Below, piece by piece: positions 7,482 to 64,000 of a stretch of DNA of 64,000 nucleotides (positions are counted from its first letter, which is position 1; each line of letters starts with the position of its first letter). The stretch lies in the NCBI GenBank assembly GCA_963402885.1, contig OY727098.1, positions 28,062,417 through 28,126,416 on the forward strand, in the 5' to 3' direction. Origin of the DNA: Antedon bifida (Eukaryota > Echinodermata > Crinoidea > Comatulida > Antedonidae). The position numbers were made by a program, and so were the translations under genes. The notes beneath the pieces were generated by a model. The model saw nothing but the letters and a program-made list of their open reading frames with translations, had not been told where the DNA came from and did not search any database.

Positions 7482-10400
7482 TTATTGTGCCAGGACCTCT
7501 TGTACAGCCGTCTTAATTGCATCAACACAAGTTGTCATCATTTCCTCAGTTAAAGTGCAATTTATAGCGACACGAATACTGAAAAACAAATATAACTTTG
7601 ATATTTAACTGTTTCAATACTGTAAGGAAAAACAATAAATTGACTAATATGTAAAGTTCAAATACCTTGGTTCCGGTGGGTTGTATTCTTCATCATTAAG
7701 ATATCGTGCTACTGTTAAGACAGCTCCATGATCAAGTGCCTACAATAGTAAGTTTATAATGTATCACATTCTTATTTTTGTAGATCCAATTAAATAGAAA
7801 AAGTAAATATTTGAATCAAAATGAAATTATTTCAAAATCTAAGTCTGTACAGTATTTATAATAAAATATGAAGTTGTATAAACTATTCATAATAAAACTG
7901 ACCTTATCTACAATACTCTGTAGAAGTCGGAGGTCATCGTCGTGGCTTCCTACAGATTTTGTTAGGTATAAATGTTGTACTGGTGACACATCTTCACCAA
8001 CCCTCTTCAGACCTGGAATGCTGAAAATAATAATAAAATAAATACATGTTTACTCCCAAGGCCAATTGAGTATAACTCAACAGTTCTTTTCAGAACTGAA
8101 TACAACTTTATATCAACATATTGATTTCGCCACGCAAACAATAAGATATAAACAACATCAACAATTCCTGGAACTTTATAACTCAGTGGCATTCTAAAAA
8201 TCTATGCTGAGAAATTCTTGTGATGGCAACAGCAATATACCAGTCAAAAAACCATTATATTGGAAATGAATATGATCAACAATATTTAATCGTGATATTT
8301 TATTTCCCATATTCTTAGATCCCAAAATCCCCTTAATAGGGTTCTACTGTAATTGGAAAAAGGAAATAACTCGGTTTCCAAGCTATGGCTTTAATTTTGT
8401 GTGTGGTGTAAATATTAAAATCAAACATTACTTGTTTAATTGTTCATGCATTAACTTTGTATTTCGACGTAAAGTCTTGAACATTCCCGGCTCGTTTTTC
8501 ATAATTTCCAATGCAGTAAGAGAAGATGATGCCAACAACGGCGGAAGAGATGCAGAAAAACAATAACCACTGCCAGATAACACCTGGAAAGAAAGACAAA
8601 CAACTTGGATGGTTTGTAAACAAATAAATCTTGAGATTGAACTATCATCAGTTTCTATAAATTTGAATCAAAACACAGTGTAATAATTAATGTAATATCT
8701 GACCTCTCTTTCTATCATGATCTAAGCTACTTCAACAATTACACTTATTTAGTCTTTGTAAAAAGACTGAAAGATAAAAAATAATTGTTGACAACGTACC
8801 TGGTGATCTACGACATATTGTGTACCTGCACAGAATCCTCCAGTTGTACCAAAGGAATTCTCTAAAGATGCACATATCAGGTCAACATTGCTAACCTTAG
8901 AAAACACACACAACAAATAAGATAAAAAACTGCATTTGGATAAAACATAGATCTCATCCTTATTTATAGAATTTATGCTATTTTCATATGTATCTGAATT
9001 TTTAACAGATAATTATTTGAAATCTAAAATCTTAACCAAATGGTTTTATGTAATTAACATGCTTATAATTTATAAAAGAAATAATCAGTATAAGAACATT
9101 AATGAAATGAGCTAGATATGATTCACAACTGGGATGTAACTTACGGGAATGTTGTAATGTTCAGTTAGGCCTTTTCCTGAATCTCCAAGAACTCCAAGAG
9201 ACAAACTTTCTTCTAAGAAAATACGAACCTTGTACTTGAACTTGAATTCAACCTTCATGCAAATACAATTAAATCAATCAATTAATTAATCTATATACAG
9301 TCAGTCACTTAACTAATGTTAAACCTTCATACAGTCAGTCGGTCACTTAACTAATGTTAAACCTTCATACAGTCAGTTGGTCACTTAACTAATGTTAAAC
9401 CTTCATACAGTCAGTTGGTCACTTAACTAATGTTAAACCTTCATACAGTCAGTTGGTCACTTAACTAATGTTAAACCTTCATACAGTCAGTTGGTCACTT
9501 AACTAATGTTAAACCTTCATACAGTCAGTTGGTAACTTAACTAATGTTAAACCTTCATACAGTCAGTTGGTAACTTAACTAATGCTAAACCTTCATACAG
9601 TCAGTTGGTCACTTAACTAATGCTAAACCTTCATACAGTCAGTTGGTCACTTAACTAATGTTAACCCTTCATACAGTCAGTTGGTCACTTAACTAATGTT
9701 AACCCTTCATACAGTCAGTTGGTCACTTAACTAATGTTAAACCTTCATAAAGTCAGTTGGTCACTTAACTAATGTTAAACCTTCATACAGTCAGTTGGTA
9801 ACTTAACTAATGTTAAACCTTCATACAGTCAGTTGGTAACTTAACTAATGTTAACCCTTCATAAAGTCAGTTGGTCACTTAACTAATGTTAAACCTTCAT
9901 ACAGTCAGTTGGTCACTTAACTAATGTTAACCCTTCATAAAGTCAGTTGGTCACTTAACTAATGTTAACCCTTCATAAAGTCAGTTGGTCACTTAACTAA
10001 TGTTAACCCTTCATACAGTCAGTTGGTCACTTAACTAATGTTAACCCTTCATATAGTCAGTTGGTCACTTAACTAATGTTAACCCTTCATACAGTCAGTT
10101 GGTCACTTAACTAATGTTAAACCTTCATAGAGTCAGTTGGTCACTTAACTAATGTTAAGCCATCATACATTCATTTGGTCATCCTTAAAGAATTAATAAC
10201 TCAAAAATATAGAAACTTTCTAAAATATAGAAACTTTCTAAAATATAGAAACTTTCTAAAATATAGAAACTTACTAATTTAGGCAAAGGAGCAATATCGC
10301 CATAATTGATAAACAAGGCTTCTGTGACTATAAAACGTCTTGTAACTTTAGCTTTCTTTGGGTTCTGAATAAAAAAACATAACAATTATTAATTCTACAA

Positions 10401-13935: not shown

Positions 13936-15968
13936 TTGCTAGCTTCCCGCCCGGAAAATATTTTATTTACATGATTTGAAACATCTTCTAATGTAAATAA
14001 TTAACAGCATCAAAATTTAACAGTGTGGCGTGTTGACCGCGAATGACTAAAAATACCATCTTTACCATACACCTGCACAGACTCATTTGCATAACAACGC
14101 ACGCACATACCAAACTGTTTAAAATACCCGAAAATGACATCTATTATGTTTTCAAACAACAAGCATAAGAATCTTCAGTACCCCACCATGCTTGGGGCTG
14201 AGCAAAGACAATTTTGAAAAAAAGAGCTGTATACAGTAGGTTCCCGCCCGAAAAAATGGCGTTACATGATTTGAATGAAACAAACTATATAAGACTCACC
14301 AGGACAATATATGAGCTTGTCCCCGTAAAGTGCACCTATTCATTGAAATATAAAATTAAATATTAAGTCTCCAGTACTAGCCCATCCATAGTTGAGGCAG
14401 AGCAATGAAAATAGAGACCAGAAATGCACTTACTTATACTTATTACTATACATAGTCACCTATGATAATTATGATAATGTTAAAATTTCAATATCCAGAT
14501 GCGACTTCAGCATTTTCGGTGGGGTTTTCTACTTCTATGGCCTAGCCCGGCGGCGGAATTAGTCTAAGCTTCGAAATTGGTCTGGAAATAGGCATCTTTG
14601 CAAATGTTCTATATTTGATCTTATTTCACTCTCCATTAACCTCATATAAAAACCATCGGAGACTATCTGTTTAAAACATGTTTATTCTGGGACGGCGCGG
14701 CCATACACACCAACTACTATGAAGAATCGGACATTTCGCTACCAATGTTGCAACATTGATTAACAAAATCAACATTTAACGGTGGGGCGCGTTGACCGCG
14801 AATGACTAACAATACCATCTTTCCTACTACACCTGCACAAACTCATTTGTATAAAAACGAACGGCATACCAAACTATGATGAGAGATACATTCTCTTCTC
14901 AACACGTAACTCGTAACGAAGATAATTAATTCATTTTTTACATTAAAATTGAAGCCGCTAAACATAAAATTTACGAGATCAAATACATGTAGCGAAAGCC
15001 AAAAAAAAAGAGTAAAAATTCAAAAACACATTTGCATAACAACGCAGGGCTTACCAAACTGTTTAAAATAGCTACAAGGTCCCTAGAAATGACACCTATA
15101 GTATTTTGAAACATGATATATAAGAGTCTTCACTACCCCACCATGATTGGGGCTGAGCAAAGACAATTTTGAAAAAAATATTTATTGAAATATGAAATTA
15201 AAATATTAAGTCTCCAGTTAAGCTCACCATGGTTGGGGCAGAGCTAAGAATGAAAGCTTAGTCCTCGGAAATTATGAAACGAAATATAAAAGTCTTCAGG
15301 ACCAGCCATACAATGGTGATTGTTTCCCAAGTGTGAGACATGCAATGCACGCGGCCGTGACGGTAATTCAACAAAACAAAATTATGAAATACAAACAGAG
15401 CTAGCACACAGAAACCTACTTACTAATTTTAATATTTCTATAATTTAGAAAACAATTAGAATTATCATATCATCTTTGATAATTATAATGTTAAATTTCA
15501 ACTATCCAGATGCGAATTTTAGGTTGGGTTTTAAAAAACTCGACTTCATAATTATGCTTCAATTTCGAAGATTTGCTTAAAACATATTTATTTATTTATT
15601 CTACCATAAACTTTTATTCACAACATATTAGTAGGCCTACAATACAATATCTTGCATGAAACGGATATTTAAAAGTACACTATAATGTGTAACGGTAGAA
15701 TTACAATTCTAATGTAAAAGATTAACAAAATAAAAATTGAACAGTGTTGTGTGTTGATCGCGAATGACTAACAATACCATCTTTCCCACAGCACATGTGC
15801 ACATGCACTCATTTGCATAACAAACGCACGGCATACCAAACTACGATGAGATAAAATTAATTCTCTTCTAAACACGTAAGGAAGAGAATTAATTCCCTTT
15901 TTTTACATTAAAATAAATTGAGGGGGCTAAACATAAAATTTAAACCACCAAAGCAGTTTGCGAGAGCC

Positions 15969-16235
15969 AAAAAAAAAAAAAAAAAGATGGTAAATGTGCT
16001 CTCCCTGCCTCAGCACTAAGGCCCTGCCACAGCCTTTTGGGGTCGTTTCCACCACATCACCAGATGCATTGATGTTGTCGCCTCATGATGTGTGGTGGAA
16101 AGGGGGACGTATGATCTGTGAACCCCAAACACAGTGGCCGCATGCCTTTAACTCTATTCCACCGACCAGCGTGGGAATCGAACCCACGACATACGTGTTG
16201 TTAACACGACGCTCAGACGACTGAGCTAACTGATC
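15969..16235 (-). mobile_element. tRNA-headed SINE, copy 1
   Basis: Read on the minus strand, 16235-16164 is a 72-base cloverleaf. The 7-bp acceptor stem is GATCAGT/GCTGGTC, the D stem GCTC/GAGC, the anticodon arm has loop TTAACAA (anticodon AAC, Val-like), and the T arm is GTGGG TTCGATT CCCAC. A-box TAGCTCAGTCG and B-box GGTTCGATTCC are intact. About 180 bases of unrelated body follow, ending ACCATC and a T-run (15985-15969). The tRNA head plus body plus homopolymer tail is SINE structure. An ORF of 76 codons read on the plus strand is not considered coding. Confidence 0.82.
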
Positions 16236-16324
16236 ATTTTGGTTTTAGCAAGTTTAATAGGATATTTATGACGTAATGATCAATTACGTAATACATGTAT
16301 AAATAGACTATTATCAGCTTTTCA

Positions 16325-16410
16325 GTCATGTACTTGGTGGCGTAACGGGTAATGCTCAGTTTTGAGTGCTATCGGCTGAGGTTCGAACCTCGACGGATAT
16401 TTTTTTTTTT
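16325..16410 (+). other. Degenerate tRNA-like Pol III unit, copy 1
   Basis: A-box-like TGGCGTAACGG (16338-16348), B-box-like GGTTCGAACCT (16380-16390) in a GAGGTTCGAACCTC T-arm, then T-runs that would stop Pol III. TATAAATA lies about 35 bases upstream. The acceptor stem does not pair well, so this is tRNA-derived rather than a working tRNA. It diverges from the neighbouring SINE. Confidence 0.55.
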
Positions 16411-17742
16411 TTTTAATATTGTTTTTTTTTTTTAATAGAGATATGTGACACTGTATTGTCGAACATGTATGGTACCATACCGGTAGGTATTCAAATATGC
16501 TTAATACGAAAAGATATTAAAATTCAGTGACTTATTTCTATTTTATATCACTGTGCTCCCCTGGCTCCAAATTGAATCCACTTGAGCACAGTGTGTATTA
16601 ACATACGAAAAGATATTAAAATTCAGTGACTTATTTCTATTTTATATCACTAAACTAAAGGAGGGGAGTTTCTAGATTCCCGCCCGGAAAATTGTATCTT
16701 TACATGATTTGAATTTCTAATAAAGTTTAACAAAATCAAAATTTAATATTTAAATTTTATTTTGTGGCGTGTTCACCGCGTAGGACTAACAATACTATCT
16801 TTCCCATTACACCTGCACAAACTCATTTGCATAACAACGCAGGGCTTACCAAACTGTTTAAAATAGCTACAAGGTCCCCAGAAATGACACCTATAGTATT
16901 TTGAAACATGATATATAAGAGTCTTCACTTCCCCACCATGATTGGGGCTGAAAAAATATTTATTGAAATATGAAATTAAATATTAAGTCTCCAGTTAAGC
17001 TCACCATGGTTGGGGCAGAGCTAAGAATGAAAGCTTAGTCCCCGGAAATTATGAAACGAAATATACAAGTTTTCAGAACCAGCCATACAATGGTGATTGT
17101 TTCCCAAGTGTGAGACATGCAATGCACGCGGCCGTGACGGTAATTCAACAAAACAAAATTATGAAATACAAACAGAGCTAGCACACAGAAACCTACTTAC
17201 TAATTTTAATATTTCTATAATTTAGAAAACAATTAGAATTATCATATCATCTTTGATAATTATAATGTTAAATTTCAACTATCCAGATGCGAATTTTAGG
17301 TTGGGTTTTAAAAAACTCGACTTCATAATTATGCTTCAATTTCGAAGATTTGCTTAAAACATATTTATTTATTTATTCTACCATAAACTTTTATTCACAA
17401 CATATTAGTAGGCCTACAATACAATATCTTGCATGAAACGGATATTTAAAAGTACACTATAATGTGTAACGGTAGAATTACAATTCTAATGTAAAAGATT
17501 AACAAAATAAAAATTGAACAGTGTTGTGTGTTGATCGCGAATGACTAACAATACCATCTTTCCCACAGCACATGTGCACACTCATTTGCATAACAAACGC
17601 ACGGCATACCAAACTACGATGAGATAAAATTAATTCTCACGTAAACACGTAAGGAAGAGAATTAATTCCCTTTTTTTTACATTAAAATAAATTGAGGGGG
17701 CTAAACATAAAATTTAAACCACCAAAGCAGTTTGCGAGAGCC

Positions 17743-18009
17743 AAAAAAAAAAAAAAAAAGATGGTAAATGTGCTCTCCCTGCCTCAGCACTAAGGCCCTG
17801 CCACAGCCTTTTGGGGTCGTTTCCACCACATCACCAGATGCATTGATGTTGTCGCCTCATGATGTGTGGTGGAAAGGGGGACGTATGATCTGTGAACCCC
17901 AAACACAGTGGCCGCATGCCTTTAACTCTATTCCACCGACCAGCGTGGGAATCGAACCCACGACATACGTGTTGTTAACACGACGCTCAGACGACTGAGC
18001 TAACTGATC
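17743..18009 (-). mobile_element. tRNA-headed SINE, copy 2
   Basis: Same SINE as 15969-16235, carried in the duplicated block. The cloverleaf is 18009-17938 with identical A and B boxes and AAC anticodon loop. Confidence 0.82.
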
Positions 18010-18098
18010 ATTTTGGTTTTAGCAAGTTTAATAGGATATTTATGACGTAATGATCAATTACATTATACACGTATAAATAGACTATTATCAGCTTTTCA

Positions 18099-18185
18099 GT
18101 CATGTACTTGGTGGCGTAACGGGTAATGCTCAGTTTTGAGTGCTATCGGCTGAGGTTCGAACCTCGACGGATATTTTTTTTTTTT
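18099..18185 (+). other. Degenerate tRNA-like Pol III unit, copy 2
   Basis: Duplicate of 16325-16410: A-box-like segment at 18112-18122, B-box-like at 18154-18164, followed by T-runs. Confidence 0.55.
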
Positions 18186-18469
18186 TTTAATATTGTTTTT
18201 TTTTTTAAATAGAGATATGTGACACTGTATTGTCGAACATGTATGGTACCATACCGGTAGGTATTCAAATATGCTTAATACGAAAAGATATTAAATTTCA
18301 GTGACTTATTTCTATTTTATATCACTGTGCTCCACTGGCTCCAAGTTGGGTCCACTTGAGCACAGTGTATTAGCATACGAAAAGATATTAACATTCAATG
18401 ACTTGTTTCTATTTATATATCACTGTGCTCCACTGGCTCCAAATTGGGTCCACTTGAGCACAGTGTTTT

Positions 18470-19308: not shown

Positions 19309-21215
19309 TTAAAGATCCTCATGAGAAACACGCCTTGTTGCTATAGAAACAAGGTCATTCCATAGGTCATGTACGTCTGTTTGTGGACCCCATACATTTA
19401 CAACTTGTCCATCTCTATTGACGAGGTACTTCCAAAAGTTCCAATTAGGTGAAACTCCACTACTTTCTGTAAATTTAAAATGATAGGAATGTAACTGGTA
19501 CAGTACAGAGTTTAACTGGTACAGTACAGAGTTTAACTGGTACAGTACAGAGTTTAACTGACTAGTATATTTTTTTTATCAAGATAAAAAGTTTTTAAAA
19601 AGTAGTAACTTTTCATTTAATCTTTTACTATTTTATAATTTTGATATTCCATGTTATTAATAACGAAGTCTCTGTATAATGTTGCATGCAGGGCCCCAAA
19701 AAATGTGCATTAAATTTGCGAAATAAAAAGTTTATACTGTACAACCAACTTACCAGCCAAGTACTTATATACAGGGTGTGCGTTGTCCCCAATAACATCA
19801 ATTTTTGAGAATAGTGGAAAGTTACAGTTGTAAGTTTGTTTGGCAAATTGACTGATTTGAGCATTACTTCCAGGTTCTTGGGATCCAAATTGATTACATG
19901 GAAAAGCTAGGATATTAAGGTGATCTTTTATTTCTCTAGCTTGACTCAACTGAGAAAGAGCTTCATAATGGTTATGTGTATAGCCACATTCACTTGCAAC
20001 ATTTACTACCAAAGATGGCTGAAAAGAAATACAGAAATGATATTTATTTCACACAATATACATACACAATAATTAACAATATCAAGAAAATATTTGAAGT
20101 AGATCCTAGTCTAGAATTGGTTCGCAAAATTTGCTAACAGTGTGCGAGAAACACATCATCATCAATTGAAAGGATTTATGTGTTATTTTTTATATGATTC
20201 TCCTTCATAAAAGTACCTATGAGGCCTAGCCTAAAATTCTAAGGTGTGGTATTCACAATAAAGTTAGTTAACAAATTAAAAATAAAGTAGTCAAAATACG
20301 AGACAAAAAAAGTGCGAAATAGAACTAGGCTAATACTTAGCACCCATTCCAACTACAAAATACAAGGCAGTGCGAAATAGAACTAGGCTAATACTTAGCA
20401 CCCATTCCAACTACAAAATACAAGGCAGTGCGAAATAGAACTAGGCTAATACTTAGCACCCATTCCAACTACAAAATACAAGGCAGTGCGAAATAGAACT
20501 AGGCTAATACTTAGCACCCATTCCAACTACAAAATACAAGGCAGTGCGAAATAGAACTAGGCTAATACTTAGCACCCATTCCAACTACAAAATACAAGGC
20601 AGGTACGCACAAAACTACAGTTCAGTTTTATTTCACACAACATTATACACTATTATCATGGAGGATACCTCCATGCTATTATTATCTACCTCCATGCTAT
20701 TATTATCTATCTTTCATATACTTATTATAATAAATACATGAATACAGTAATACATTTGATTTTGTGTGGTGATTCAGCCATATTCAAAGTCTGAAGAACC
20801 TCCAGATTAAACAAACAAAACAATAAATATTTAATATCCACTTTATTATTAAATAAGTCACACACACATAACACTAACAAACAGTCACATTTATTATGCG
20901 CAATTTGTGGCGGGCCATCCGATAGAGGGCCCACTAGCTAAAGCCTTAGCAGCCAGCTCACTAGGTAGGCCTCAGTCAGGCTCAGGCGCTCAGCTAGGCC
21001 CTAGAAGCTATATGTATGGATAGCTCTAAGTAGGCTAGCTAGCCTACCACGAAATTAACACACAAACAGTATACCTTTCCCCGATATTGTTCTAACGATA
21101 CCATTTCCCCTTCAATATCTGTAACTTTAAATGAATAAAAGTCTACAGCTTGGACTCCTATCGATAAAAAGTAATAAAGCAATACGTTAACCGAAGAAAA
21201 CATGTTTACCGCCAT
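19309..21215 (-). CDS. GPX7: ER-resident glutathione peroxidase, GPX7/GPX8 type, 3 coding exons
   Basis: Exons in transcription order 21075-21215, 19754-20018, 19309-19466; 187 residues, the same length as human GPX7. An N-terminal signal-like segment (about residues 4-22) precedes VDFYSFKVTDIEGE. The active site is a cysteine, encoded TGT, in VVNVASECGYT, so no selenocysteine insertion is required. Gln in AFPCNQFGSQEPG and Trp-Asn in PNWNFWKYLV complete the peroxidase tetrad. The protein ends HEDL, a KDEL-type ER-retention signal, as in vertebrate GPX7 and GPX8, which oxidise protein disulfide isomerase using peroxide. It cannot be assigned to GPX7 or GPX8 specifically and may represent their ancestor. 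Intron 1 holds a 58-bp tandem repeat. Head-to-head with CDC20. Confidence 0.93.
19494..19560. repeat. 21-bp tandem repeat, 3 copies, GPX intron 2
   Basis: Unit ACTGGTACAGTACAGAGTTTA repeated three times. Confidence 0.9.
20312..20603. repeat. 58-bp tandem repeat, 5 copies, GPX intron 1
   Basis: Unit starts GTGCGAAATAGAACTAGGCT and ends CTACAAAATACAAGGCA. The five copies are essentially identical, which points to recent expansion. Confidence 0.95.
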
Positions 21216-36622: not shown

Positions 36623-36677
36623 TAGGTGATCATTTAGAATAAAATGATCACCTATTGTTATTGTATAAAATCTTTAT

Positions 36678-38248
36678 TAGGTGATCATTTAGAATAAAAT
36701 GATCACCTATTGTTATTGTATCAAATCTTTATTGTTATTATTGTTTCTGGGCACTATTTTGTGTAACAAATATCTAAAAAAGTTTAATGTCAATGATTAC
36801 CAAAATTTCACAATGTCTTTCAAATAATACAACTTAATCCTAATAAGCTTTCCAGCGTGATCACTCATCCGTGATGACATTTATACGCCATTTTGCGAAA
36901 TCACATTATCAATCATATCTCCATAATTCATTATCACATATTAATGAAATTCACTACACGTAAACTTCAGATCAAGGGTAAAAATATTAGCAAATAAAAA
37001 CGCACGCGCACGTAGGTTCATGCGCGTGATATCGCGCGTTAAAAATTTAAAACGCTCAAAATTAAGTTTTGATCAATTTAGAGCATGAATTAGGCCATTT
37101 GCGTGTTTCAAAAAATTACTGCGCAAAAATGCGTTTTTGCGCGCGCGATACTTAAAAAGCGTAAAAAATATGAATTTTTTTTTACAAATCTCATTCTACT
37201 CACCATCCTTAGTACATTCACCAAATTTGAGTCAGTTCCGACTTAAAATAACGCTATACGAGCACGTTAAAAATGACAAAATGCGCACATTTATTTTACA
37301 AAAGTTCTGAAAATTGTGAAAAATAGGTCTTTTTTAAAATGAAAATAATTCTTCAGAATGCAAGATGACCCCCGATTTTTTTAACTTATTCTGGAAGCCA
37401 TTGAGTTGTAGATATGAATTCATGTACACATTTTACGTACAAAATGTTTTGACGTCATCAAATGGCCACTTGAATTTAAAAATTAGGATTTGTTATCTTT
37501 TTGTGTAGATTATCACATTCAACAGAGCGCATCTTGGTTATGTGTGCTCGAATTTCGCACAACTTTCAGTATGTGCTTGCTTAATTAATTATCTTTATCA
37601 TGAGTTGACACTATCTTCATTTTAATGACGTCATCACGCGTAAAAACTTGAATAACGTAGGCCGTGTAATTTCACCTTCACAGTAAATTTGAATATCTTA
37701 CAGCTCTTCAGAATTGAAGGTTACCTTGATGATTATAATTTATTATGAAAGCTGATGAAATGTAGATATTAATTCATATAAAAATTAAGCCTATCGGATG
37801 TTGTGATGTTATCATATGGCCAGTTGAAGTTAAAACGTAGTTTTTAGATTTCTTTAGTCGAAGTTATACAAATTTCAATGAGCGCGCATTGCGCTTCTAC
37901 GTATCAAATTCTCTTCCAATCCTTATATTTATTTGCTCAATTCATTATCTTTCGAAATTGTCATCTTCGAGTTTATTTTGATAATTCCATCATACCAACA
38001 AATTTGAACATGATGTGGGTCCCATAATTTTACCTATGCTACACTGTATATAGATATACAGTATATACTGTATATATTTTATATGGCATATAGGCACAAC
38101 TCAGCACTATAAGCATATAATAGGATGGCATACATCAACATTTTCCGATCGTATGTTAACGTACGTGCATGTTTAAAAAAAAGTTAATTTCAGTAAAATG
38201 ATAAAAATGATCACCTATAATTCGTCAAAGTGACGAATTAAATTCTAG
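36678..38248 (+). mobile_element. Helentron family A, element 2 (uninterrupted)
   Basis: Complete copy, 1,571 bases, from TAGGTGATC to CTAG. It sits in the T-rich tract of element 1, whose 5' end is 36623-36677 and whose body resumes at 44773. Confidence 0.78.
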
Positions 38249-38263
38249 TTATTATTTTTTTTT

Positions 38264-38410
38264 TAGGTGATCATTTAGAATAAAATGATCACCTATTGTT
38301 ATTGTATAAAATCTTTATTATTATTTTTTTTCTTTTTTTTAGGTGATCATTTAGAATAAAATGATCACCTATTGTTATTGTATAAAATCTTTATTATTAT
38401 TTTTTTTTTT
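38264..38410 (+). mobile_element. 5' ends of Helentron A elements 3 and 4
   Basis: Two successive 5' ends (38264 and 38340), each with the GGTGATCATT..AATGATCACC hairpin and the TTGTTATTGTATAAAATC segment, stop in poly-T. Their bodies appear downstream at 41694-43213 (element 3) and 40174-41693 (element 4). Confidence 0.75.
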
Positions 38411-40173
38411 ATTGGTTATCCGCAACGAAGTTGCTGATAACCTCTTGTGATTGTACGAAATCATCAACATCAACATCATCTTTTTATTTCTCTTCTTTCT
38501 TTCTGTATGATTTTTGTGTAACGCTTTTCTCTGAAACTTGCAAACATAACATTTTGTGAACTATGTTAACATTTTGACATTTATGTAACGTCGTCAAGCG
38601 AAGCTTTTCATGATGTTTACAATTGCGCAATGTGACGTACGCGCGATTTAACGATTTTCTCGTATTTAACATAGGTCAAAAACCAAATAACATTTTAAAT
38701 TGAAACTTTGCACAAATTTAATTTATATCATGCGCTAACTTTCTGTTGAACAAAAATTGCGTGTTTTACACAAAGTTACGCGCGCACGCGCATTTAAAAT
38801 TTCAAAATGCGCTAAATTATTTTCTAATCAACTTTCTACGCGTTTCATGTCATTTTAAGCATGTCAAAAATTCCCACGCGTGCGCAAATTTTTACGTGTG
38901 CGGTGCGCACGTAGCATTGAAAACATATATTTTCCGCGTGATTTATGTTTTTCCAGCCTCTTCTAGTAATTTTACCAACTTTTAAACAATTTGGGCTTAA
39001 GGTTACGTCATACGAGCACGTCGAATTGGTCAATTTGCGCGCGTTTTTGATGAAAAAGTTCAGAAAATCGTCAAAATTATGCCTTTTTTTAAACAGACGT
39101 AGTTTCTAAACTGCACGGTCAACTTTTTGTGGATGACATATTCTGGAAGTTGATGAGTTGTAGATATAGGATCATGTATCAATATGGCTAACCGGACATT
39201 GTGACGTCATCGTATGGCCACGCGAATATAAAATTTAGGATTTTTGTATCTTTCATCATAGCTCATCACATTTAATAGAGCGCATCTCCACTTATCCGTT
39301 TTCCATTTTCACCCCGATTTTGATATTGTCTAGGTCAATCAACTATCTTTCGCATGAGTTAAAAATATTTTAATTTTTTTGACGTCATCATGCCTAAAAA
39401 TTTAAATTACGTGTGGCATTAATTTCATCTGTACAGTAAATTTTAATCTGTTATAGCTCGTAAGAATAAAATGTGATAATCACGATTAAAACGTTTTCTG
39501 GAAGCTATTGGATTGTAGATACGAAATCATGTGAAAATTTTGCCAATCTGATGATGTGACGTCATCATATGGCCACTTAACTAAAAAAAGTCGTATTTTC
39601 ATTTTTTGCGTAATAGTTCATTACATTTAAAAGAGCGCGCATCAATATTTCACGTATTCAAATTTCTTCTGCACGTTAATATGTTGTTGCTGAGATAATA
39701 TCCTTCCGAAATTGCTATCTTTGTATTTCATTTTGATGCCGCCGCCATGTTAAAATTTGGAATAAATGGCGGCTCCCGTAATTTCACCTAATCTACACTG
39801 TATGTAATATGTAAACAGATTTTACTGTTTATACCGACTGTAATGGAATAGCCCAAATCGTTTATTTCCTACCTATTTCTATAATGTAGCAGGCCAAATA
39901 AGACGTTATTTTTACAGGATAGAGAGAGGCAAACAATATTTTTCTCGTATCAGAGCCGTTCATCGTTGTTAGGAGATATGTGATTTCTATTACATTTTCT
40001 GGTTTTGTTTGTCAGTTGCTTGTCCGGCCTGTAGGTCATAATGCCAACGTGAACGCTTCCTTTTGGCCTCAACCTATCCCCTTAATGTTAAAAGGTACGT
40101 CGTTAAACGTCCATGTTTCACCACTTGCGCAGCGGATAACCAAACTCGTCAAAGTGACGAGTTTCATGTCTAG
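38411..40173 (+). mobile_element. Helentron family B, complete element inserted in element 4
   Basis: Starts with GGTTATCCGC (38414-38423) in a hairpin with GATAACC and ends with the inverse GCGGATAACC (40132-40141), a hairpin ACTCGTCA/TGACGAGT and CTAG. The body resembles family A (TGACGTCATC, ATGGCCAC, TTCACCTA..CTACACTGTA words) but is clearly a separate family. It lies in the poly-T of element 4. Confidence 0.78.
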
Positions 40174-41693
40174 TTATTTTTTTTCTTTTTATTGTTTCTG
40201 TACACTATTTTGTGTAACAATTATCTCAAAAAGTTTAATGTCAATGATTACAAAAATTTCAGAATATCTTTCAAATAATACAACTTAATCCTAATAAGCT
40301 TTCCAGCGTGATCACTCATCCGTGACGACATTTATACGCCATTTTGCGAAATCACATTATCAATCATATCTCCATAATTCATTATCACATATTAATGAAA
40401 TTCACTACACGTAAACTTCAGATCAAGGGTAAAAATATTAGCAAATAAAAACGCACGCGCACGTAGGTTCATGCGCGTGATATCGCGCGTTAAAAATTTA
40501 AAAAGCTCAAAATTAAGTTTTGATCAATTTAGAGCATGAATTAGGCCATTTGCGTGTTTCAAAAAATTACTGCGCAAAAATGCGTTTTTGCGCGCGCGAT
40601 ACTTAAAAAGCGTAAAAAATATGAATTGTTTTTACAAATCTCATTCTACTCACCATCCTTAGTACATTCACCAAATTTGAGTCAGTTCCGACTTAAAATA
40701 ACGCTATACGAGCACGTTAAAAATGACAAAATGCGCACATTTATTTTACAAAAGTTCTGAAAATGGTGAAAAATAGGTCTTTTTTAAAATGAAAATAATT
40801 CTTCAGAATGCAAGATGACCCCCGATTTTTTTAACTTATTCTGGAAGCCATTGAGTTGTAGATATGAATTCATGTACACATTTTACGTACAAAATGTTTT
40901 GACGTCATCAAATGGCCACTTGAATTTAAAAATTAGGATTTGTTATCTTTTTGTGTAGATTATCACATTCAACAGAGCGCATCTTGGTTATGTGTGCTCG
41001 AATTTCGCACAACTTTCAGTATGTGCTTGCTTAATTAATTATCTTTATCATGAGTTGACACTATCTTCATTTTAATGACGTCATCACGCGTAAAAACTTG
41101 AATAACGTAGGCCGTGTAATTTCACCTTCGCAGTAAATTTGAATATCTTACAGCTCTTCAGAATTGAAGGTTACCTTGATGATTATAATTTATTATGAAA
41201 GCTGATGAAATGTAGATATTTATTCATATAAAAATTAAGCCTATCGGATGTTGTGACGTTAACATATGGCCAGTTGAAGTGAAAAAGTAGTTTTTTCATA
41301 TTTTTCGTCAAAGTTATACACAATTCAAAGAGCGCGCACAGCGCTTCTACGTGCCAAATTGTTTTCCAAATCTTATATTTTTTTGCTCAATTAATTATCT
41401 TTCGAAATTGTCATCTTAAAGTTTAGTTTGATAACGTCATCATGCCAAAAAATTAGAACATGTGTCCCGCAATTTCACCTATGCTACACTGTATATAGAT
41501 ATACAGTATATACTGTACATATTGTATATGGCATATAGGCACAACTCAGCACTATAAGCATATAATAGGATGGCATACATCAACATTTTCCGATCGTATG
41601 TTAACGTACGTGCATGTTTAAAAAAAAATTAATTTCAGTAAAATGATAAAAATGATCACCTATAATTCGTCAAAGTGACGAATTAAATTCTAG
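40174..41693 (+). mobile_element. Body and 3' end of Helentron A element 4
   Basis: Begins in the T tract after the family B CTAG, runs 1,520 bases and ends with the 3' hairpin and CTAG. Closely similar to the other A bodies. Confidence 0.75.
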
Positions 41694-43213
41694 TTTTTCT
41701 TTTTATTGTTTCTGTACACTATTTTGTGTAACAATTATCTCAAAAAGTTTAATGTCAATGATTACAAAAATTTCAGAATATCTTTCAAATAATATAACTT
41801 AATCCTAATAAGCTTTCCAGCGTGATCACTCATCCGTGACGACATTTATACGCCATTTTGCGAAATCACATCATCAATCATATCTCCATAATTCATTATC
41901 ACATATTAATGAAATTCACTACACGTAAACTTCAGATCAAGGGTAAAAATATTAGCAAATAAAAACGCACGCGCACGTAGGTTCATGTGGTGATATCGCG
42001 CGTTAAAAATTTAAAACGCTCAAAATTAAGTTTTGATCAATTTAGAGCATGAATTAGGCCATTTGCGTGTTTCAAAAAATTACTGCGCAAAAATGCGTTT
42101 TTGCGCGCGCGATACTTAAAAATCGTAAAAAATATGAATTTTTTTTACAAATCTCATTCTACTCACCATCCTTAGTACATTCACCAAATTTGAGTCAGTT
42201 CCGACTTAAAATAACGCTATACGAGCACGTTAAAAATGACAAAATGCGCACATTAATTTTACAAAAGTTCTGAAAATGGTGAAAAATAGGTCTTTTTTAA
42301 AATGAAAATAATTCTTCAGAATGCAAGATGACCCCCGATTTTTTTAACTTATTCTGGAAGCCATTGAGTTGTAGATATGAATTCATGTACACATTTTACG
42401 TACAAAATGTTTTGACGTCATCAAATGGCCACTTGAATTTAAAAATTAGGATTTGTTATCTTTTTGTGTAGATTATCACATTCAACAGAGCGCATCTTGG
42501 TTATGTGTGCTCGAATTTCGCACAACTTTCAGTATGTGCTTGCTTAATTAATTATCTTTATCATGAGTTGATACTATCTTCATTTTAATGACGTCATCAC
42601 GCGTAAAAACTTGAATAACGTAGGCCGTGTAATTTCACCTTCGCAGTAAATTTGAATATCTTACAGCTCTTCAGAATTGAAGGTTACCTTGATGATTATA
42701 ATTTATTATGAAAGCTGATGAAATTGAAATGTAGATATTAATTCATATAAAAATTAAGCCTATCGGATGTTGTGACGTTAACATATGGCCAGTTGAAGTG
42801 AAAAAGTAGTTTTTTCATATTTTTCGTCAAAGTTATACACAATTCAAAGAGCGCGCACAGCGCTTCTACGTGCCAAATTTTTTTCCAAATCTTATATTTT
42901 TTTGCTCAATTAATTATCTTTCGAAATTGTCATCTTAAAGTTTAGTTTGATAACGTCATCATGCCAAAAAATTAGAACATGTGTGTCCCGTAATTTCACC
43001 TATGCTACACTGTATATAGATATACAGTATATACTGTACATATTGTATATGGCATATAGGCACAACTCAGCACTATAAGCATATAATAGGATGGCATACA
43101 TCAACATTTTCCAATCGTATGTTAACGTACGTGCATGTTTAAAAAAAATTAATTTCAGTAAAATGATAAAAATGATCACCTATAATTCGTCAAAGTGACG
43201 AATTAAATTCTAG
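41694..43213 (+). mobile_element. Body and 3' end of Helentron A element 3
   Basis: Follows the previous CTAG directly with a poly-T and the TTATTGTTTCTGTACACTA start of the body. 1,520 bases, ending in CTAG, with no 5' hairpin of its own at this place. Confidence 0.75.
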
Positions 43214-43214
43214 T

Positions 43215-44772
43215 TAGGTGATCATTTAGAATGCTAAATGATCACCTATTGTTATTGTATGAAATCTTTATTTTTTTTCTTTTTATTGTTTCTGTACACT
43301 ATTTTGTGTAACAATTATCTCAAAAAGTTTAATGTCAATGATTACCAAAATTTCAGAATATCTTTCAAATAATATAACTTAATCCTAATAAGCTTTCCAG
43401 CATGATCACTTATCCGTGACGACATTTATACGCCATTTTGCGAAATCACATTATCAATCATATCTCCATAATTCATTATCACATATTAATGAAATTCACT
43501 ACACGTAAACTTCAGGTCAAGGGTAAAAATATTAGCAAATAAAAACGCACGCGCACGTAGGTTCATGCGCGTGATATCGCGCGTTAAAAATTTAAAACGC
43601 TCAAAATTAAGTTTTGATCAATTTAGAGCATGAATTAGGCCATTTGCGTGTTTCAAAAAATTACTGCGCAAAAATGCGTTTTTGCGCGCGCGATACTTAA
43701 AAAGCGTAAAAAATATGAATTTTTTTTACAAATCTCATTCTACTCACCATCCTTAGTACATTCACCAAATTTGAGTCAGTTCCGACTTAAAATAACGCTA
43801 TACGAGCACGTTAAAAATGACAAAATGCGCATATTAATTTTACAAAAGTTCTGAAAATGGTGAAAAATAGGTCTTTTTTAAAATTAAAATAATTCTTCAG
43901 AATGCAAGATGACCCCCGATTTTTTTAACTTATTCTGGAAACCATTGAGTTGTAGATATGAATTCATGTACACACTTTACGTACAAAATGTTTTGACGTC
44001 ATCAAATGGCCACTTGAATTTAAAAATTAGGATTTGTTATCTTTTTGTGTAGATTATCACATTCAACAGAGCGCATCTTGGTTATGTGTGCTCGAATTTC
44101 GCAAAACTTTCAGTATGTGCTTGCTTAATTAATTATCTTTATCATGAGTTGACACTATCTTCATTTTAATGACGTCATCACGCGTAAAAACTTGAATAAC
44201 GTAGGCCGTGTAATTTCACCTTCGCAGTAAATTTGAATATCTTACAGCTCTTCAGAATTGAAGGTTACCTTGATGATTATAATTTATTATGAAAGCTGAT
44301 GAAATGTAGATATTAATTCATATAAAAATTAAGCCTATCGGATGTTGTGACGTTAACATATGGCCAGTTGAATTGAAAAAGTAGTTTTTTCAAATTTTTC
44401 GTCAAAGTTATACACAATTCAAAGAGCGCACACAGCGCTTCTACGTGCCAACTTTTTTTCAAAATCTTATATTTTTTTGCTCAATTAATTATCTTTCGAA
44501 ATTGTCATCTTAAAGTTTAGTTTGATAACGTCATCATGCCAAAAAATTAGAACATGTGTGTCCCGTAATTTCACCTATGCTACACTGTATATAGTGTACA
44601 TATTGTATATGGCATATAGGCACAACTCAGCACTATAAGCATATAATAGGATGGCATACATCAACATTTTCCGATCGTATGTTAACGTACGTGCATGTTT
44701 AAAAAAATTAATTTCAGTAAAATGATAAAAATGATCACCTATAATTCGTCAAAGTGACGAATTAAATTCTAG
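43215..44772 (+). mobile_element. Helentron family A, element 5 (complete)
   Basis: Complete copy from TAGGTGATC to CTAG, 1,558 bases. Its 5' hairpin is changed (AGAATGCTAAATGATC) from the other copies, and the AT palindrome near 44590 is shortened. Confidence 0.78.
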
Positions 44773-46299
44773 TTTTTTATTATTTTTTTTCTTTTTATTG
44801 TTTCTGTACACTATTTTGTGTAACAATTATCTCAAAAAGTTTAATGTCAATGATTACAAAAATTTCAGAATATCTTTCAAATAATACAACTTAATCCTAA
44901 TAAGCTTTCCAGCGTGATCACTCATCCGTGACGACATTTATACGCCATTTTGCGAAATCACATTATCAATCATATCTCCATAATTCATTATCACATATTA
45001 ATGAAATTCACTACACGTAAACTTCAGATCAAGGGTAAAAATATTAGCAAATAAAAACGCACGCGCACGTAGGTTCATGCGCGTGATATCGCGCGTTAAA
45101 AATTTAAAACGCTCAAAATTAAGTTTTGATCAATTTAGAGCATGAATTAGGCCATTTGCGTGTTTCAAAAAATTACTGCGCAAAAATGCGTTTTTGCGCG
45201 CGCGATACTTAAAAAGCGTAAAAAATATGAATTTTTTTTACAAATCTCATTCTACTCACCATCCTTAGTACATTCACCAAATTTGAGTCAGTTCCGACTT
45301 AAAATAACGCTATACGAGCACGTTAAAAATGACAAAATGCGCACATTTATTTTACAAAAGTTCTGAAAATGGTAAAAAATAAGTCTTTTTTAAAATGAAA
45401 ATAATTCTTCAGAATGCAAGATGACCCCCGATTTTTTTAACTTATTCTGGAAGCCATTGAGTTGTAGATATGAATTCATGTACACATTTTACGTACAAAA
45501 TGTTTTGACGTCATCAAATGGCCACTTGAATTTAAAAATTAGGATTTGTTATCTTTTTGTGTAGATTATCACATTCAACAGAGCGCATCTTGGTTATGTG
45601 TGCTCGAATTTCACACAACTTTCAGTATGTGCTTGCTTAATTAATTATCTTTATCATGAGTTGACACTACCTTCATTTTAATGACGTCATCACGCGTAAA
45701 AACTTAAATAACGTAGGCCGTGTAATTTCACCTTCGCAGTAAATTTGAATATCTTACAGCTCTTCAGAATTGAAGGTTACCTTGATGATTATAATTTATT
45801 ATGAAAGCTGATAAAATGTAGATATTAATTCATATAAAAATTAAGCCTATCGGATGTTGTGACGTTAACATATGGCCAGTTGAAGTGAAAAAGTAGTTTT
45901 TTCATATTTTTCGTCAAAGTTATACACAATTCAAAGAGCGCGCACAGCGCTTCTACGTGCCAAATTTTTTTCCAAATCTTATATTTTTTTGCTCAATTAA
46001 TTATCTTTCGAAATTGTTATCTTAAAGTTTAGTTTGATAACGTCATCATGCCAAAAAATTAGAACATGTGTCCCGTAATTTCACCTATGCTACACTGTAT
46101 ATAGATATACAGTATATACTGTACATATTGTATATGGCATATAGGCACAACTCAGCACTATAAGCATATAATAGGATGGCATACATCAACATTTTCCGAT
46201 CGTATGTTAACGTACGTGCATGTTTAAAAAAAAATTAATTTCAGTAAAATGATAAAAATGATCACCTATAATTCGTCAAAGTGACGAATTAAATTCTAG
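44773..46299 (+). mobile_element. Body and 3' end of outermost Helentron A element 1
   Basis: Starts in poly-T without a 5' hairpin and ends in the 3' hairpin and CTAG at 46296-46299. Matches the unpaired 5' end at 36623-36677, so this is read as the outer shell of the nest. Confidence 0.75.
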
Positions 46300-61702: not shown

Positions 61703-64000
61703 TTTAAAATGCTTACATGTACATGCTACAGCTGCAATACATTTATGGTATTTGTAACAGTGTTGTATTTAAACAAAATACAAACGGTACTAAGGTGGCA
61801 AATCGTCAGACTGACTCTAATCGTTAACGTTATAGTGGTGTCCTCTCTGGCTACACTCCACTTTTACAAAAATGCCGACAGAAGGTAGAGTCACAGACAG
61901 CAATGTGATTACTAGGTAATGAATTTTCCTTGATGCAACCTGCCAAGTTGTTCTGGTTTGTGCTAATCCATCCAGCTGCTTTGCAAGGGCTTTCTTTACT
62001 AGTTCCTATATTTATAAACCCACTGGATAATACTAAATACTAGACCATGACTAAACTAATGAGATATCAATCTTGTCAGAGTAACTCTATTTAATGAACT
62101 TTGTACTGGGATGGGACAACTATAAATCTATTCTTTCTAAACTACATAATAATCATTGTCAATATTTGTCAATCTTAAAATATCCTGAACTCTGAATATC
62201 AGTAAGATCATGAAAATGGAGGGCATTGCTGCATTGATCAGATAATCATTCTTAGGTCATATAACAGCAAAAGTTATAACACCTATAAATGTACAGACGT
62301 ATCTTTGCAATTTGATAGGTTGAATTTCTATTTTGGATTACTTTCTCCAAATTGCAATTGTTTTTTGAGATTTTTGTGTGACAAGCTAGGCTTGATGCGT
62401 GGCAGAAAATCAATCTATAGAGTGCACTATCTATAACAAGCTAGGCTTGATGCGTGGTGGAAAACCAATCTATAGAGTGCGCTATCTATAACAAGCTAGG
62501 CTTGATGCGTGGTGGAAAACCAATCTATAGAGTGCGCTATCTATAACAAGCTAGGCTTGATGCGTGGTGGAAAACCAACCTATAGAGTGCGCTATCTATA
62601 ACAAGCTAGGCTTGATGCGTGGTGGAAAACCAACCTATAGAGTGCGCTATCTATAACAAGCTAGGCTTGATGCGTGGTGGAAAACCAACCTATAGTATGC
62701 GCTATCTATAACTGCTATGCCACACAGCCAAATTCTTATTGGCAATCCTATTCAATAGATGAAATTCAATCTACTTAAATTAAATTTAAAAAAAAAATTA
62801 TAATTTTTAATTTAGCTTTTATTCTTAGAGATTGAATGAATTACTTTGTATCCACTACTAAACGAATTGCTGGGAATACCTGAACCAAATCATCTGATTT
62901 CCTGTTTTTATACAAATAAAGGTGCTTCACTCTTCCTGTTATTAGGCGGCTCTGGTGGGAATCCTGATAGTCACTTCATTAGCACACAAATTATATTGGT
63001 TAAAGATTTACTAAAATTATGCTTTGTAATTACACACAAAATAGTAAACTAATAGCTTTGCAATTTAATATAGGTGTATAAATAAACTAATCAAATACAG
63101 AAAATCCCACTACTACTCTATCAATTCCATTGGTTGTTTATTGGGTAATACAAAGTAAATAAAGTAATTATTAAACTAAATATAATGTAAATGTGCACTA
63201 TTATATGAGCTAAAAAACATGACGCCAAAGCTATGGAAGAAAATCTCTAAAATATCCGTCTTTGGTAAAATGTTGATTGAAATTTGGGTTTTAAAACTAA
63301 ACACCATGCCAGCAGCGAAAGTAAAGTTTTGTCCTTTTTGTGGAAAACAAATCAATTTTTGCACATACAATTGTCAATGGTTCAAATAAATTCTTACAAT
63401 TTCATTTAATGATTTTTATCATGCAACTCATTCCAAATATCTCTACAAAAAAAATCCCTCTTGGCAAATGCTGAGTAAAAATGATGGTTAGTAAAGTTGG
63501 CCTAACCCTTGTACTTAACAAAGTCAACGACTGAAATAAGTCGGCAGTCCAAATGATCAGAAACCGATAAAATTGTGCAGTGATTTTGTTGGCAGATATA
63601 CAAACAATGAAATAGAAGGGTAGAAGATTGCAAAGCCGTTTTTTTAAATCAAGAACCATTTTGCAAATCAGTAGTAGGCAAACTATATAGGCATAAGTAC
63701 ATTTATATTAGTATTTAAATTGTGTATTTCTGTTCATAAATGAAACAATAAATATATGCCGTACTACCATATGAATGAGTATACACAATCTGTTAATTAG
63801 GAGTGTGTTGTTGAAATGAAGGAAACTGGACAATCGATATAATAAATAATTAATATCATTCAAATATAAAACTCACAAAAAAATTATTAAATGTAGGCCG
63901 TAGTTCTACAAAAATAAGGAGTACCGAGCAAGATATAGCTAAGCACCGCCCTTGTTTTTTAGGTTAGGACCAAAGTCAAAAGCCTCATTTAACTGGTCGC
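61703..64000. other. Upstream region of RICTOR
   Basis: Holds the RICTOR promoter (not localised) and the 55-bp tandem repeat below. Apart from a 27-codon Cys-containing frame at 63306-63389, nothing gene-like is seen to the window end. Confidence 0.5.
62382..62712. repeat. 55-bp tandem repeat, 6 copies
   Basis: Unit begins CAAGCTAGGCTTGATGCGTG and ends GAGTGCGCTATCTATAA. Six copies with 0-3 substitutions each. Confidence 0.97.

Follow-up and report, generated by a model that had tools for sequence, protein, structure and literature searches.

Non-autonomous Helentron-like elements (HINEs), among them the DINE-1-like elements, are described by their ends: a sub-terminal inverted repeat (subTIR), which is a 12–15 bp palindrome 2–4 nt from the 5′ end and again ~38–60 nt from the 3′ end, together with T-flanked targets that have a variable number of T and no target duplication (PMC4067079; this and the other articles are cited here from parts of their text). 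DINE-1-like elements have also been described in the blowfly (PMC3630058). FoHeli, a Helitron2 of Fusarium oxysporum, has doubled 5′ termini of 31–85 nt, for which self-insertion was proposed; the target of FoHeli1/2 lies between TNAT and A, and one case in Metarhizium was attributed either to two insertions into a 5′ end or to rolling-circle output (PMC5148889). Doubled Helitron-like 5′ ends have so far been read in these two ways, as self-insertion or as rolling-circle by-products. Here we analyze a 64,000-nt stretch of the crinoid Antedon bifida (termed the window; C11:28,062,417–28,126,416 of the 315.6-Mb assembly GCA_963402885.1), in which positions 36623–46299 hold a nest of five copies of one Helentron-like element, family A, and one copy of a related element, family B. 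We attribute the nest to repeated self-insertion at a ladder of TWAT^TT sites (W, A or T; the caret marks the point of insertion) that the element itself carries, a reading to which we give a probability of about 0.9.

Elements of the nest resemble HINE and DINE-1-like elements in their palindromic 5′ subTIR, which recurs 30–45 bases before the 3′ end, in the 3′ hairpin close to that end, in having no coding capacity that was found, and in T-flanked insertion without target duplication; they differ in that family A has a target defined as TWAT^TT, which lies within the element itself, and in forming multi-level nests (PMC4067079). FoHeli shares the doubled 5′ termini and the idea of self-insertion, but is described with multiple 5′ termini and a single 3′ terminus and with a mechanism that was proposed only, whereas family A bodies resume, tract halves pair, and nests are up to six deep (PMC5148889). 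Relative to those parts of the FoHeli article, the family A nests are a clear, deep variant of the self-insertion already proposed for fungal Helitrons. Cg_HINE of the Pacific oyster is likewise a HINE with short repeats, a TT target and no target duplication, but the word "nested" is absent from the main text of its description, and its arrays are internal satellite-like repeats (PMC7492417). Among literature titles and abstract openings, a search that left subscription journals mostly outside, we found no multi-level nests parsed by tract halves.

Architecture of the Nest

The five copies of family A (E1 to E5) are delimited by 5′ ends at window positions 36623, 36678, 38264, 38340 and 43215 and by 3′ ends (CTAG) that finish at 38248, 41693, 43213, 44772 and 46299, all on the forward strand and all where a preliminary description of this DNA had placed them. 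The 3′ 30-mer is exact in all five copies and the 5′ 30-mer in four, the end at 43215 having a variant loop; scanning both strands of the window with the 30-mers (≤6 and ≤7 mismatches) returned no further family A ends. The nested pattern of five copies is therefore real, and its ends do close like balanced brackets, as had been claimed, although 42 of the 252 possible arrangements of five openings and five closings are balanced and the order by itself is thus weak evidence.

The outermost copy, E1, opens with the palindromic subTIR and the start of a T-rich tract (36623–36677) and is cut after CTTTAT. At this TTTAT^T site begins E2 (36678–38248), a complete inner copy of a divergent subfamily with a short tract that is identical to the tracts at three other loci. 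A residue of the E1 tract, TTATTATTTTTTTTT (38249–38263), separates E2 from the 5′ end and left tract part of E3 (38264–38339), which is cut 76 bases in. The 5′ end and left tract part of E4 follow (38340–38412), ending at a cut read as TTTAT^TATT, and in the E4 tract lies the sixth element, a complete family B copy (~38413–40174, with exact ends that were placed from the E4 join and are uncertain by 1–2 bases), with the subTIR TTGGTTATCCGC, a 3′ hairpin and CTAG. E4 then resumes with the remainder of its tract and its body as far as the 3′ CTAG (40175–41693), and E3 does the same (41694–43213). E5 (43215–44772), another uninterrupted copy, whose 5′ palindrome is longer, directly adjoins E3 as CTAG-T-TAGG, and the E1 tract remainder and body close the nest (44773–46299). 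All of these parts are on the forward strand. The two uninterrupted family A copies are 1558 and 1571 bases long, and the maximum depth is four levels (E1 > E3 > E4 > B). Counted from the surrounding 5′ end, inner elements start 55, 70–71 and 76 bases in, within the T-rich tract.

Element Anatomy and Classification

Family A starts with TAGGTGATCATTT, which includes a hairpin (z −8.0 and −10.2). The T-rich tract follows 50–75 bases in, and then a body with two diverged ~330-base repeats (67% identical); the 3′ region holds the second copy of a 12–13 bp palindrome arm, a 9–10 bp hairpin, and the terminal CTAG. The 5′ palindrome lies 0–1 nt inside the end and its 3′ copy ~32–43 nt from the end, an arrangement that corresponds to the HINE subTIR with copies slightly closer to the ends than published (PMC4067079). 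In family A the hairpin stops ~9 nt before the 3′ terminus and in family B it is similarly placed, both within the ~8–35 nt given for the HINE 3′ palindrome. No open frame in the nest exceeds 121 amino acids from stop to stop, and this frame, the one scanned of the 26 with at least 50 amino acids, has no Pfam match, as expected of elements with no coding capacity. Insertions are T-flanked (T in 38 of 38 left flanks, TT in 12 of 12 right flanks) and lack a target duplication, which rests also on the 13 of 24 tract joins described below. By these features of sequence and predicted structure, we class the elements of the nest as HINEs.

Canonical Helitrons (Helitron1) begin with TC, end with CTRR, and insert between A and T. 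This class is ruled out here by the 5′ TAGG, the subTIRs and the insertion at TWAT^TT, while the CTAG 3′ end of family A, taken alone, is compatible with CTRR.

Family B is ~1.76 kb long, has the palindrome TTGGTTATCCGC at both ends, and is 64% identical to family A over 1.38 kb of its body. A structure scan of the window for other Helentron ends gave 15 candidates, and the convincing ones were the six of the nest. A truncated third HINE-like element, family C, was found by similarity on the reverse strand (61217–60962); it has the 5′ palindrome GTTATCTGCAATATGCGGATAAC, shows no 3′ end, is 67–87% identical to parts of family B, and adjoins a coding sequence read as Rictor. Its T-rich tract is in the same position as those of families A and B. 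Bacterial and viral collections yielded no relatives with the exact patterns.

Insertion Target and Tract Joins

Other copies in the genome were sampled with a doubled-5′ query, which gave 62 matches from 40 scored candidates among 1031; these correspond to 40 loci including the window (designated here by L and a number), and the other 39 are mostly 6-kb stretches, so that many nests run past the end. At the outermost left flanks (n = 38; L036 contributes the same flank twice, and the L015 flank contains part of another 5′ end), the four positions up to the insertion point read T in 37, W in 36, A in 31 and T in 38, and all 12 right flanks start with TT; the target is therefore TWAT^TT. The preliminary description had proposed a TT-rich target carried by the element itself, of which the self-carried part stands, while "TT-rich" is replaced by this more specific motif. 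TWAT also directly precedes 61 of the 68 nested 5′ ends.

The distances between stacked 5′ ends (n = 68) are 55 (42 cases), 58 (8), 60 (4), 61 (4), 64 (2), 67 (2), 70 (1), 73 (2), and 75, 76 and 77 bases (1 each), the abundance of 55 being partly due to the doubled-5′ query. The series 55, 58, 61, 64, 67, 70 and 73 follows from the ATT repeats with which the tract begins, where the motif recurs every 3 bases. L035 has 21 forward-strand TWATT sites; 7 fall within its first 130 bases, including one ahead of the tract, and the other 14 are in the body.

If insertion into the tract splits a resident copy, then joining the two halves should restore a tract of the kind found in uninterrupted copies. 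A recognizable tract (17 to 65 nt, 18 kinds) is present in 33 of the 47 family A 5′ ends that lead into their own body. The rule of left half plus right half minus one base is applicable to 24 of the 28 split tracts paired by brackets, and 13 of these 24 joins are letter-identical to an uninterrupted tract elsewhere, compared with none when no base is dropped and one when two are dropped. Crossed combinations of left and right halves match in 93 of 358 cases (26%), versus 54% for the bracket pairs. In the window, the halves of E4 rejoined around family B give a 53-nt tract that is letter-identical to the uninterrupted copy at L035 once a surplus T is removed (in three joins around family B, AT was assigned to the outer tract by hand). 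An insertion thus adds the element plus one T and removes nothing.

Left and right halves also correspond by position: when the left half is cut at the first site, the remainder starts with TT[AG]TTATT in 13 of 16 pairs, versus 2 of 12 for other cuts (Fisher p 0.0016; 28 pairs, of which those from the same locus are not fully independent, and with a parser that was revised once before this count). The E1 tract is cut three times (by E2, E3 and E5), and its pieces and linkers together approximate the L035 type with a few additional T, by an inexact manual count. For the predicted join of 36623–36677 with 44773–46299, colinearity was borne out and an exact match to a known tract was not. A target duplication of 10–20 bp was suspected at the window junctions, where joined tracts are 52–60 nt compared with 33 in intact E5 and 27 in E2; it was ruled out by the long uninterrupted tracts that exist elsewhere and by the 13 exact joins.

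Nests at Other Loci

The landmark that follows a family A 5′ end (n = 131) is another A 5′ end in 68 cases, its own body in 47, a family B 5′ end in 10, and something else in 6. Family A bodies that could be followed (n = 69) were of normal length in 62 cases, of other length in 4 and in a different order in 3. Only three 5′ ends come after a body landmark (L036, L045 and L046), and two of these are ~1.9–2.1 kb behind it, perhaps outside the body. Leaving out one pair of 5′ ends spaced by 55 bases per locus (at 38 of the 40 loci), we count 40 tract interruptions against ≤3 after body landmarks (p 8e-19, based on forward-strand motif sites); we treat this only as an indication that the tract is hit more often than motif density gives, since the doubled-5′ sampling favors tract events.

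The clearest nest (C1:19,278,001–19,294,000; L047 with L049) has six family A 5′ ends in a row and then seven bodies. Its left cuts are at 75, 67, 55, 55 and 55 bases, with the last 5′ end whole, and the tracts on which the bodies resume, from inner to outer, are TTATTATT three times, TTCTTATTATT and TTTTTTC, which is the mirror image of the left cuts. Both halves of the fourth pair have the TTCTTC-type tract, a kind seen at L042. The seventh body begins CTAG-TGAGAAATTG, a variant also present at L010 and L022, and is read as a separate start. L010, L022 and L047 (with L049) share one arrangement, in which an A 3′ end is immediately followed by an A-type body that starts with TGAGAAATTGTTTTTGTAAAA; this is perhaps a composite, or another type of 5′ end.

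L017 carries a family B copy at the same nucleotide and in the same tract type as the family B copy of the window. The two share 94% identity over 1.5 kb, suggesting that this site was used by two independent insertions.

Relations among Copies and Alternative Explanations

We aligned 62 bodies, and for all five window bodies the nearest relative is at another locus rather than in the window (0.60 vs. 0.80% difference for E1, 3.32 vs. 3.46% for E2, 0.53 vs. 0.80% for E3, 0.20 vs. 0.80% for E4, and 0.40 vs. 1.28% for E5). Window bodies differ from each other by at least 12 substitutions. The preliminary description had predicted divergence decreasing inward, and this is not seen: private substitutions number 7 in E1, 5 in E3, 4 in E4 and 13 in E5, counts with no power to order the copies by age (E1 versus E5, p 0.26). 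E2 is a mosaic, with 34 of its 46 private substitutions (36740–38248) within 227 of 1515 columns; over these columns it is ~16–18% different from the other copies, and ~1.2–1.7% elsewhere, as if the segment came from another subfamily.

The claim of repeated self-insertion is supported by the base-level joins, the six-deep mirrored nest, the 28 bracket-paired tracts and the nearest-neighbor relations. Several observations weigh against it. Judged from the window tracts alone, nested pairing outscores the next best of the six possible pairings by a slight margin (0.808 vs. 0.794), and since bracket order and tract pairing in the window are both weak, the case rests on the junctions and the other loci. 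Exact joins were obtained for one of three in the window (E4, and not E3 or E1), 11 of the 24 joins match none of the 33 recognized uninterrupted tracts, and low-complexity tracts discriminate only partly, as the crossed matches indicate. The cuts made by E3 in E1 and by E4 in E3 are in poly-T, a minority of sites, and not at TWAT^T, and E3 and E5 abut off the motif, at one of 13 such CTAG-T-TAGG junctions. These neighbors also pair in the five-copy tree (75% bootstrap; 62% without the mosaic part of E2). Surplus 5′ ends occur at L030, where only one 3′ end accompanies two 5′ ends before the sequence turns into apparently unrelated DNA, perhaps at L035, which resembles L030 and has an ambiguous upstream side, and at L046 (with L050), where nine A and one B 5′ ends are stacked within 600 bases and are followed by only one A 3′ end in the next 13 kb. 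Finally, the sampling by doubled 5′ ends means that the frequency of nests is not inferable from these loci.

The surplus ends fit composites cut from nests, or later deletions, and they bring in the alternative with the most in its favor, in which nests form once and then transpose, either whole or as pieces that combine one 3′ end with at least two 5′ ends, so that part of the window nest would have arrived pre-formed. Composites were proposed for the fungal Helitrons with doubled 5′ ends of 31–85 nt (PMC5148889), and the surplus ends at L030, L046 and perhaps L035, and the CTAG-TGAGAA body variant in the same arrangement at three loci, are in keeping with them. Among nine dimers with 55-bp spacing, those at L016, L018, L022 and L025 are alike across loci in both inner (0.47–0.80%) and outer bodies (0.33–0.73%), and shared descent from one dimer is possible for these, although their tract types vary. 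The outer bodies at L012 and L034 belong to the same group (0.47–0.67% from those four and from each other), but their inner copies are 1.46–1.73% and 5.67–6.0% away, so that the 55-bp doubled ends cannot all derive from one transposed dimer, and the dimers at L015, L032 and L033 have other outer bodies. The different family B copy at L017, at the same nucleotide as in the window, also argues against a single pre-formed unit. Re-mobilization of composites is compatible with self-insertion and may act beside it; as an account of the window nest we consider it possible, at less than even odds.

Rolling-circle concatemers, i.e., units in a row from one circle when termination is skipped, have been the explanation for tandem Helitrons elsewhere (PMC4067079), and the 13 head-to-tail CTAG-T-TAGG junctions, E3/E5 included, have the expected form. 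However, the bodies that flank the six measurable junctions differ by 0.87–14.2%, so these are not fresh concatemers of one template, and concatemers predict neither doubled 5′ ends nor 5′-less bodies that resume at the tract, making this origin highly improbable. An origin of the bodies and the 55/76-bp 5′ ends by local tandem duplication or by unequal crossing-over is equally hard to sustain. The 5′ ends are indeed tandem, with periods of 55 and 76, the E4 and E3 bodies are adjacent 1.5-kb repeats, and at L018 the inner and outer bodies are the same, but each window body has its closest relative at another locus, and neither the mirrored order of cuts nor the exact joins with one T removed is predicted by duplication. 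Over all loci, nearest neighbors at the same locus number 5 of 53, where shuffling gives 2.2 on average and reaches at least 5 in 41 of 500 trials. The preliminary description had named a tree in which neighboring bodies are tandem-duplication sisters as grounds to abandon nesting; E3 and E5 come close to this by pairing and abutting, but both have closer relatives elsewhere, and their 5′ ends and tracts differ. An assembly artifact might be suspected where near-identical repeats are hard to assemble, and is the least probable of these explanations, given the substitutions that separate the window bodies and the same logic at other loci.

At L018 (2092–5217), the inner and outer A bodies are identical over 1.5 kb (0 differences). 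From this identity, the L018 nest is probably either very recent or gene-converted.

Proposed Mechanism and Implications

Every copy carries a T/ATT-rich tract 50–75 bases inside its 5′ end, and in the self-insertion model new copies, presumably made by the rolling-circle protein of an autonomous Helentron, would insert at TWAT^TT in the same orientation as the resident copy. The ATT repeats present the motif repeatedly in 3-bp steps and would so lead to landing inside resident copies at the tract, each event adding the element plus one T and removing nothing. In the window, E1 would have taken E2 and then E3 and E5, E3 would have taken E4, and E4 would have taken family B; we infer this order for the siblings E2, E3 and E5.

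If the 5′ tract acts as a landing pad, attracting insertions beyond what its motif gives and at a fixed ladder of sites, this may be a further reason why it is hit more often than body sites with the same motif. Transposase bound to the palindromes of a resident 5′ end would perhaps draw new copies to it. We regard this extension as rather doubtful; if true, nests and the multi-5′ composites cut from them would be a regular step in the spread of the family.

At the base level, self-insertion is distinguishable here from rolling-circle by-products by where the cuts lie, by tract halves specific to subfamilies and by the uninterrupted copies. The family preserves a natural record of the sites at which insertions were made (TWAT^TT on a 3-bp ladder), which could be counted genome-wide. 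For repeat annotation it is also a warning, as stacked 5′ ends and 5′-less bodies can be halves of the same copies.

Surroundings of the Nest

Genes in the window include Pfam matches above the cut-off to the Frem N-terminal domain, cadherin-like repeats, Calx-beta and WD40, and matches below the cut-off to CDC20/Fizzy WD40 and Rictor. A tandem duplication of ~1.6 kb (15021–18424; 96.9% identical, offset ~1.77–1.8 kb) has a tRNA-Val (AAC) on the reverse strand in each duplicate (16162–16236 and 17936–18010). Three minisatellites are present, at 9304–10181 (38 bp × 23), 20311–20602 (58 bp × 5, 100% identical) and 62381–62712 (55 bp × 6).

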